A stretch of 64,000 bases of DNA from Xiphophorus maculatus (lineage: Eukaryota > Chordata > Actinopteri > Cyprinodontiformes > Poeciliidae). Below the pieces are notes generated by a model that worked only from the letters and a program-made list of their open reading frames with translations, was not told where the DNA came from and made no database searches. The stretch lies in the NCBI RefSeq assembly GCF_002775205.1, contig NC_036443.1, forward strand, positions 19,935,266-19,999,265, read 5' to 3'. This document shows positions 36,491-62,351 of this stretch, in pieces. The position numbers and the translations under genes are program-made. The stretch's first letter is position 1, and every line of letters begins with the position of its first letter.

Positions 36491-39400
36491 ATGAGCCGCG
36501 AGGGTGCAGAAATGGACCATGCACGAGCGCCGGAAACACAGGAAAGCAAGGTAACTAAATGAATACATAAATACAGTGACGGGTTCGCATTTAACGCTTA
36601 GCTTTGTTGGATGTACACAGTGATGAAGCGTTTAAGGTTGTGGACCTGCCTTTCCTCTTTAAAGTAATATCAAACACGGTGGTTAATGGCTCTGTCAGGT
36701 CAGGACGTCAACAACTCTAATGGAGTATTGATAGTAAGTTTAGTGTAATAAGGATCACCAGAGGGCGCCAACGAGCTTCATACACATTAATTAATAAAGG
36801 TAGGGTGATTTCGTGATTAAACGCATTTGTAGAAATAGACTGCATTTGAAGTCGCAGACAGAATTCACATAAATGAAAGGTATTTTGTTATTTAGTACTG
36901 CTTTTAACATATAGTTTATAACATAATAGGATGAGATATTTATTTTAAATTAGTGTCATTGCACAATTGTTGGATTTTTTGCTTCGTAGTTGAAAGAAAA
37001 AAAAAAACTATATAATATTAATCTATTTATTTATTTATTTTTTAAATCATTTTGAGATCCCAGAAAATGTATTGATTTATTTTTAAACTATTTATTTATG
37101 TTTTTTAATCCAGTGTTTTCTCACAGGATTGTTTACCCAGTTCTTCATCTACAAAAATTGAATGATTTATGTACCTCGTTACTTTTTTATTGAACTACGA
37201 ATGCTATCTTAGTGTCAGAAAACAAAATGAAAAGTTTTTAATCTTTAAAGTTGAATGTTAAAGAAGTTTAAATGTGAAAATATTTTAATCCATTTCCTAT
37301 CAAAATGTTTCCTACCAGTTCTAATGATATCATCTTCTACCTCCGCAGGCTGACAAGAAGCTGACTGGCAGCTCTGCTTCTCCCACCGAGGTACAGCCCG
37401 TTGACTCAAAATGACCTTTTTACTTTAAACGATTCTGTAATTTTAGTATGTGTGAGGAATTATTTTACGTCTCAATACAGATTAAAAAGAGGCCAATCAG
37501 AAGAGTGAGAAGTCCATCTGCACCAAGAGCATGGCTATCCAGGTCTTACAAACCAAAGTTTGGAGGGCATGTCTACAAACCTCGGTGAGGCTCAAAATAT
37601 ACTTATTAAACTATTATATAATCTATAAAGTATATATTTGTAACTAATTCAACCTAATTTCATTTAAATGTCTTCCATAATGCAGTTTTCCAGGAGACCA
37701 CCATTCATTTCACAAAACTGGTTTCCACAGTCAACACCATCACTACCTGAAGAATCAGGCTTACGTCCATCGCAAGGATTACCCTCCACCTAAACCTTGG
37801 TTGCTCGCAATGAAGGAAAAGGAGAAGGAGAAGCAGAAGCAGAGGGAGAAAGAGAGGCTGAAGGAGAAAGAGAGAGAAAAGCAGCATCACGAGCAGAGAG
37901 AGAGCGCTGAGAGAAGTTCACCTTCAAAACAAAACAGTAGGTTTATGTTTGTAGTAGAAAAAATCGAAGTCACACACATCTCATACATTATATATCACTG
38001 CAAAACCAAATGTATGAATCTGTTTATAAAACAGCCCATAATAGGCCCATTCATTAGTTCATACAAGAGATTCACAAACAAATTTCCCAGTGATTCTAAT
38101 GATCTTATTTTACCGTTACCTTTTTAGCATCAGTGAGTTCGCCATACATGACAAGGCTCTTCTGAAATGAAATTGTGTTTTCTACAAAGACATCTCAGTT
38201 GTTCACTCAAGCTGCCAGCTAACTAAAGTAGGAAGAAGATGTCAGCAAATAACAGGAAGGCTGAATATGTTGCAGAATGGTTTCTGTGTTTTATCTTCCA
38301 CTGTCATAGACATTTTAGAAATGTTTAAACTTCATAGTTATTGTAAGTTTTCTTATTTTGCAGCAAATACATGAAGAAGCTGTCATTTACGGTTAATAAT
38401 TTATGTTAATCACGTTAATTATAAAAATAACAAAGTAATAATAAAATTGGGCCGCATAGTGTTGCAGTTGATAGAAAGAGAGGCCAACTGCTGTTGCCTT
38501 GCACCAAGAAGGTCCTGGGTTCAATTCCCGGCCTGGGGTCTTTCTGCATGGGGTCTGAATTTGAATTTCTCCCTGTGCATGCATGGGTTCTTTCTGGGTA
38601 CTCCATCTTCTTCCCACAGTCCAAAAACACGACTGTCAGGTAAATTGGTTTCTCTAAATTCTCCTTAGTGAGTGTGTGCGTGTGCATGGTTGTTTATCCT
38701 GTCTGTCTCTGTGTTGCCCTGTGATGGACTGGCGACCTGTCCAGGGTGTACTCCGCCTCTCACCTGAAACATTTGCTGGAGATAGGCACCATATGCATAT
38801 ATATTTATAATATAGCTGAAATATATGTTCTATCATCAAATGCTATAATAAGACATATCATAGCAATTGCAATGTATTAAATTGTGGTACTCTTGGCCTG
38901 TTTTACAAACCATTATTTGGTGACTTGCACTGGATGAAAAAACATTGTTCACAAAAACAGGCCAATGTGACTAATTGCAGTATGATAGGATGCCACTAGA
39001 TGGAAGTGTATTCAAGTTAAGGAACTTATCTTGTTTTCTTGAGCTCTTTGCGCAACAAACATTTGGAGGCAGTTGCATGTTGTATCTGCTGATAGGTAGG
39101 TAGAAACTCTAGTAGCAACAAACCAGAGTTACATAAAGCTGATCCTGCTCTCAGTGTATGGATCATGTCATCAATGAGCTGTTTGCAGGCCAGCTTGTTT
39201 CCCCCCCTTTGAACAGTGTGGTGCTGCTTTTTTTCCGAGACACATCTGTTAGATTCTTAACAATATCTTTGTGGTCTGTTAGTGGTAGGAGTTCACAATT
39301 TATCAGTAAAAAGGTGGTATGTTTCTATGGTTGTAACACTGAAAATCCACGTATCAGATTTTTGCTAGTATAAACTGGTGCTGAGTATCTTTATCTCCCC

Positions 39401-61600: not shown

Positions 61601-62351
61601 TCCACCTCTTTCTGGTTTGGTTTCCATTATAAAACATTGTAGATCATTTTCACTGAGCTGCCTATTATTTCCCCCCTCTTAAATAATTTTTTAATCAAAG
61701 TTCACTGTAACAATATGTGAAATGGCCCATTTTATCCACATTTTCCCCTTCAGTCTATTACTCTGTCTGGCACAAAATTTTCCTACATATAAATTTGGTT
61801 TTAAACTTGTTAGCTGAAAAATGTCCCTTCAATTATTTTTCAATAAAATGTCTGATATTTCAGTCCCAGTGATTGTCCTGGATGTCATCCCGGCCCTTTC
61901 TCTTCTTCCTATTCTAACCTAAAGAAGATATAATACACACAAGGTGAAATAAAACAACCAGGATGTGTTTTTTCTCTTTTGGTCAAACAATTCTGTTTAC
62001 AGCTTCAGATTATGAGGAAAGTGTTGCAAATTAGATAAACCAGATTAATAAATAATTTTCATTGCTTTGGCTTAATTCATATGGTCTGCGTGTTCAGAAT
62101 GAAAAACAGCAATAACTAATGAAGCATTAAGCGTAAAATGCAGCTTGAATATCATGGAGCTCATACCTGCTCAGGGTTGAGGCCTGGGGGAACCCAGGCG
62201 TACTCTTCCAGAGCACAACCGGAGTCATCGTCGGAGGTGGAGTTCCTCTGGAAGTCATACATCAGCTTGGTGATGGTCTTTTCCATCTCCAGAGACATGG
62301 CTGTCACAACATGCTCTTTCACACACAACCGTTTAGTGGACACAGGTATTC
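49637..62351 (-). CDS. prickle2: Prickle planar cell polarity protein, prickle2-like
   Basis: Eight minus-strand exons join in frame: 62167-62351, 56330-56443, 56074-56211, 55692-55895, 53227-53413, 52564-52718, 51669-52470, 49637-50583. Starting at the Met at 62298 ([13 protein letters not shown]) this gives 892 aa; human PRICKLE2 is about 844. The reading frame stays open upstream to the acceptor at 62351, so another 5' exon may lie beyond the window. The PET domain spans about residues 1-110. Three LIM domains follow (about 125-310), with [39 protein letters not shown] and [19 protein letters not shown]. The long tail keeps [35 protein letters not shown] and [18 protein letters not shown] blocks. 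The C-terminus KSKNCIIS is a CaaX prenylation signal. The LIM3 and tail wording ([13 protein letters not shown]) favours prickle2 over prickle1. Prickle acts with Vangl at the membrane in planar polarity. Confidence 0.93.
54810..55009. mobile_element. hAT-type MITE with internal palindrome, 200 bp
   Basis: The left end is CAGTGTCTCCCAACCCTGG and the right end, reversed, is CAGTGGTTCCCAACCCTGG. The candidate 8-bp flanks TTATTGAC and GTGTAGAC agree at only 5 positions, so the duplication is decayed. A perfect hairpin with 15-bp stems (GCAGAGGAGGTCATG, 54874-54888; loop GCTG; mirror 54893-54907) lies inside. Located in a prickle2-like intron. Confidence 0.75.
55280..55420 (-). mobile_element. 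Antisense SINE fragment
   Basis: Matches the reverse complement of the SINE at 38449: ACATGCAAACTCC, then CAGAAAGAACCCATGC, and TTTAACAAGAGACCT from the region of the B box. Both ends are missing. Confidence 0.7.
56870..57400 (+). pseudogene. Tc1-like transposon relic with transposase fragment
   Basis: GGGAAGCTGGTCAGACTTGA then TGGGAAGATG and TTCACCTTTCAGCAGAACA correspond to Tc1 transposase sequence of the GKLVRxDGKM and FTFQQ type, broken by stops. Left and right flanks carry fish Tc1 end motifs (TTTAATGGGATTTTATCTGG; CTACTTCACAATTATCTACC). Confidence 0.7.
58056..58265. repeat. (ACTAT)n pentanucleotide satellite with degenerate tail
   Basis: A pure array of ACTAT units runs to about 58141. 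It then decays into variants such as ATGCT, ATACT and GTACT until about 58265. Confidence 0.95.
59927..59947. repeat. (ATGG)n short array
   Basis: Four to five tandem GGAT/ATGG units preceded by GGATGATGGATAAATG. This type of array commonly ends fish retroposons, and a second example lies at about 61115-61135. Confidence 0.6.

Follow-up and report, generated by a model that had tools for sequence, protein, structure and literature searches.

The periphilin-prickle locus and its surroundings

The window is a 64-kb stretch of one contig (bases 19935266-19999265) of a fish genome of 704 Mb in 101 contigs. Two genes that lie side by side in it were rebuilt from the DNA: a periphilin-like gene on the + strand (36491-46832) and a prickle gene on the - strand (62351-49637). 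The two genes converge tail-to-tail, with 2.8 kb between their stop codons, and together the models reach from 36491 to 62351. The periphilin-like gene consists of seven coding exons (837 nt including the stop codon, 278 aa), and GT-AG borders are present on all six of its introns:

36491..36550, + strand: periphilin coding exon 1 with the start ATG (gene model, GT donor)
37349..37390, + strand: periphilin exon 2 (gene model)
37481..37584, + strand: periphilin exon 3 (gene model)
37686..37936, + strand: periphilin exon 4, Lys/Glu/Arg-rich low-complexity stretch (gene model; tandem hexamer at 37812-37873)
39833..39891, + strand: periphilin exon 5 (gene model)
45728..45865, + strand: periphilin exon 6, in which the Periphilin_C domain starts (gene model, Pfam)
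46650..46832, + strand: periphilin exon 7 and stop; its helical stretch corresponds to the domain of dimerisation and TASOR binding (gene model, Pfam, PDB match, predicted structure, alignment)

An origin as a retrocopy was rejected, as the seven exons with GT-AG introns argue against it. A tblastn search of the window with an approximate, incomplete human periphilin sequence recovered the last exon (E=1.9e-16) and gave a weak match to exon 6 (E=1.2). No convincing extra exons were found by this search in the 5.8-kb intron 5, a weak test for hidden exons as the query comprised 319 aa vs 374 for isoform 2.

The prickle model has eight coding exons with AG acceptors and GT donors and specifies a protein of 892 aa that ends in CIIS. 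Pfam recognizes a PET domain (E=1.6e-40) and LIM sequences in three stretches (E=3.6e-27):

62167..62351, - strand: first coding exon of the prickle2-like gene, containing the ATG and the beginning of PET (gene model, Pfam)
56330..56443, - strand: prickle2-like exon, middle of PET (gene model, Pfam)
56074..56211, - strand: prickle2-like exon, end of PET (gene model, Pfam)
55692..55895, - strand: prickle2-like exon, LIM1, the best Pfam LIM stretch (residues 126-185; gene model, Pfam)
53227..53413, - strand: prickle2-like exon, LIM2, assigned by eye (gene model, Pfam, TESTIN LIM alignment)
52564..52718, - strand: prickle2-like exon, LIM3, assigned by eye (gene model, Pfam, TESTIN LIM alignment, residues 188-307)
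51669..52470, - strand: exon 7 of the prickle2-like model, in the tail region (gene model)
49637..50583, - strand: prickle2-like last exon with the CIIS end (gene model)

The preliminary description had placed a gene with a periphilin C-terminus immediately beside a prickle2-like gene, and the rebuilt models with their domains bear out this arrangement. The adjacency implies no functional link between the two genes. Beyond the periphilin gene follow receptor-type phosphatase exons and then qrich1, qars1, and ogg1, partly read by eye. Of the earlier calls of the latter three, Pfam supports a qars1 fragment (tRNA-synt_1c, 4.3e-10) and one of two fragments of qrich1 (DUF3504, 5.2e-15). The second qrich1 fragment and the ogg1 fragment gave no Pfam match, so that the ogg1 call stands on reading by eye.

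Several other features were observed in the window. The protein tyrosine phosphatase exons between qrich1 and the periphilin gene (30935-33501, - strand; pieces joined by eye) match Pfam Y_phosphatase (E=2.7e-50), and LAR is the best of their 242 PDB matches (E=2e-61). Between the 3' ends of the periphilin and prickle genes, a putative relic of a Tc1-type transposase was recognized by eye from a motif (47794-48039, - strand; no Pfam match). In the prickle gene, a 5-bp ATACT repeat (41.6 copies, 80% matches) lies at 58056-58263 within the first coding intron. A THAP-domain fragment (25361-25573, - strand, E=2e-9) lies close to 4.2 tandem copies of a 44-bp unit (25850-26035), and a perfect ATA array of 31.7 copies occupies 2585-2679. 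Rfam gave no match at or above a family's gathering score in the window, six of the seven sub-threshold matches falling at one place around 35.1 kb, and no tRNA genes were found in it.

Identity of the two proteins

On sequence grounds, the C-terminal domain clearly marks the 278-aa gene as a true periphilin. Pfam Periphilin_C (PF25234) covers residues 192-273 with E=7.5e-33 and 113.2 bits (cut-off 27), and the sole PDB match of the protein up to E=10 in a sequence search was human Periphilin-1 (6SWG, E=1.7e-20). An ungapped alignment over 74 residues of this domain shows 39 identities between the human and fish proteins. The residues L326, L333, and I337, which form the dimer interface of human periphilin according to the available text of PMC7544229, are kept as L234, L241, and I245 in the fish protein; the human numbering was fixed by demanding that these three residues and L356 coincide, and one register fitted. 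L356 was mutated in the human protein to break both TASOR contacts (PMC7544229); this TASOR-contact residue is replaced by M264 in the fish protein, a conservative change.

The structural comparison of the C-terminus with periphilin-TASOR, as proposed in the preliminary description, yielded no match. From its single sequence, exon 7 alone was predicted to fold into two helices with a break at a KDP turn (pLDDT 89.7, pTM 0.58), but a Foldseek comparison of this 60-aa model with the PDB gave 0 matches and thus no chain for a VIA-align comparison. The assignment of the fish C-terminus to the periphilin helical domain therefore leans on the sequence matches.

The N-terminus is less like that of the human protein. 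Residues 1-127 of fish periphilin are basic and Lys/Arg/His-rich (14.2% K, 9.4% R, 7.9% H, 3.9% Y). The human periphilin N-terminus is described as Arg/Tyr-rich. In an approximate, incomplete human sequence (319 aa), R and Y stand at 18.9% and 7.9%, against the 9.4% and 3.9% given above for the fish protein. Human periphilin requires residues 1-127 for RNA binding and silencing but tolerates deletion of residues 1-70 alone (PMC11754731, available text). The difference in composition may reflect drift of a disordered region or may be a sign of a diverged ohnolog; it is weak evidence, as disordered N-termini may diverge fast.

By analogy, the fish protein would most likely act as human periphilin does. 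Its C-terminal helical domain would dimerise and be held by TASOR, its basic N-terminus would hold nascent RNA, and HUSH, of which it is a putative member in fish, would then bring H3K9me3 to intronless invading transcripts. Of this scheme, the interface is conserved in the fish sequence, and the remainder is extrapolated from biochemistry in human cells as reported in the accessible parts of PMC7544229 and PMC11754731.

The prickle gene looks like prickle2, as judged from the likeness of its tail to approximate human sequences. The preliminary description had based this identity on both LIM3 and the tail. The tail comparison, made with approximate human PRICKLE1 and PRICKLE2 sequences, tends to favour it; LIM3 was assigned by eye. 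The pieces compared initially were of unequal extent: a PRICKLE1 piece with LIM3 and tail scored 219 bits over 670 columns (30% identity) and a PRICKLE2 piece restricted to the tail scored 208 bits over 340 columns (43%). On the common tail, the 332 residues of the fish protein scored 208 bits with the approximate PRICKLE2 (146 of 340 columns identical) and 120 bits with the approximate PRICKLE1 (114 of 351). At E<=1e-20, TESTIN was the only PDB match to the prickle protein, which does not separate prickle1 from prickle2. The same holds for the CIIS end, since CIIS is the CAAX end of PRICKLE1 and PRICKLE2 alike (PMC11116189, available text).

Origin of the periphilin-prickle neighbourhood

The order of focal genes on spotted gar LG5 is lrig1, slc25a26, magi1, rho, adamts9, prickle2, pphln1, slc2a9l1, psmd6, atxn7, and thoc7, in a comparison of 11 focal genes that does not state strict adjacency of prickle2 and pphln1 in its available text (PMC5645911). 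Eel and arowana have kept pphln1 in the teleost synteny #2. No teleost was inconsistent with the pattern, some regions being fragmented and some genes not found (PMC5645911, 2017). As gar, eel, and arowana keep the prickle2-pphln1 order, the neighbourhood is already known in ray-finned fishes and its order predates the teleost duplication. In human, the preliminary description had put PPHLN1 together with PRICKLE1 at 12q12; this agrees with a five-gene microdeletion segment comprising GXYLT1, YAF2, ZCRB1, PPHLN1, and PRICKLE1 (PMC7019335, as far as its available text goes).

The simplest explanation for two prickle paralogs, each accompanied by a periphilin in a different lineage, is a single ancestral pair that was duplicated along with the genome, as had been proposed at the outset. 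The early vertebrate genome duplications (2R) would have produced two copies of the PPHLN-PRICKLE neighbourhood, of which ray-finned fishes would have retained the periphilin-prickle2 pair tail-to-tail and mammals the PRICKLE1-side pair. The gene in the window is probably an ordinary periphilin of a fish, part of an old PPHLN-PRICKLE block and kept beside prickle2, while mammals kept the pair at PRICKLE1. The prickle2-side periphilin of fish and the PRICKLE1-side periphilin of human both fit the proposed duplication; within it, reciprocal loss suits them as well as a second fish periphilin does. No literature was found that ties the fish prickle2-pphln1 neighbourhood to PPHLN1-PRICKLE1. The available text of PMC5645911 contains no discussion of PPHLN1-PRICKLE1 or of an origin of the pair in an early vertebrate duplication.

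Two more specific histories are sub-cases of the old-block explanation and not alternatives to it. One, which is possible and put forward tentatively, is reciprocal loss: the prickle2-side periphilin alone would survive in fish and the prickle1-side copy alone in mammals, so that fish and human 'PPHLN1' would be ohnologs and not orthologs. The prickle2-side gene is the pphln1 of gar, eel, and arowana (PMC5645911), and the human copy lies with PRICKLE1 (PMC7019335), both of which suit this history. The plain name pphln1 used for the prickle2-side fish gene in the available text of PMC5645911 also hints, weakly, at one periphilin per fish genome. The other sub-case, which seems about as plausible as reciprocal loss, is that this fish genome holds two periphilins, a mammal-like pphln1 on the prickle1 side and a diverged ohnolog on the prickle2 side that might enter HUSH-like complexes of another kind or pair with the first as a dimer. 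Its position differing from the mammalian one, its N-terminal composition unlike that of the approximate human sequence, and M264 in place of the TASOR-contact L356 would be in keeping with such an ohnolog. For its partner TASOR, a paralog of early-vertebrate age is described, TASORB (PMC10578480, available text), so there is a precedent for the duplication of HUSH components; TASORB could, speculatively, be the candidate partner of a second periphilin, if one exists. Against two periphilins stand the rapid divergence that disordered N-termini may undergo, which makes composition a weak argument, and the name pphln1 of the prickle2-side gene (PMC5645911). Gene names for a second periphilin or a periphilin paralog were not found in the literature searched, nor was a second fish periphilin in the available texts on periphilin and teleosts. 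A stronger version, in which ray-finned fishes carry an ancient prickle2-side second periphilin that was lost in mammals and whose different N-terminus provides a second RNA-recognition input to HUSH-like silencing, is rather unlikely.

A true alternative to the old block is that a single periphilin came to lie beside prickle2 by a move within the ray-finned lineage, without any block duplication. One periphilin per genome would be expected here too, but landing next to the second prickle paralog would be a coincidence, and the convergent orientation agrees with that of the human PPHLN1-PRICKLE1 pair, which we take to be convergent as well; such a move is improbable. Even less credible, and very unlikely, is the view that the LIM gene is prickle1 and the locus simply the PPHLN1-PRICKLE1 pair, as the tail scores favour the approximate PRICKLE2 and the qars1 and qrich1 neighbours are human 3p genes. 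The CIIS end common to both paralogs (PMC11116189) and the reliance on approximate human sequences speak for this view, but published fish synteny puts pphln1 with prickle2 (PMC5645911).

Being already in print, the neighbourhood by itself is of minor interest; only proof of a second periphilin in fish would raise it above a modest level. Should the periphilin of fish be the prickle2-side copy, 'PPHLN1' of fish and human may be non-orthologs, which matters for work on HUSH silencing in fish. If fish have both copies, the RNA-binding subunit of HUSH would have been duplicated and one copy lost in mammals.

Comparison with the gar and human systems

The window resembles spotted gar LG5 and the teleost synteny #2 in that periphilin lies next to prickle2 among the focal genes (PMC5645911, available text). 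The resemblance ends past pphln1, where gar has slc2a9l1, psmd6, and atxn7, none of which was seen in the 64-kb window, while the window has the phosphatase exons, qrich1, qars1, and ogg1 (partly by eye). Human 12q12 likewise combines periphilin with a prickle paralog, but this is PRICKLE1 and not prickle2 (PMC7019335, available text). At the protein level, the window periphilin is shorter than human isoform 2 (278 vs 374 aa; PMC11754731, available text). Its N-terminus differs in composition from that of the approximate human sequence, being less Arg/Tyr-rich, and it has Met at the position of human L356. In the C-terminal domain, the window protein and human Periphilin-1 (6SWG) are alike, with 39 of 74 residues identical and the dimer residues kept.
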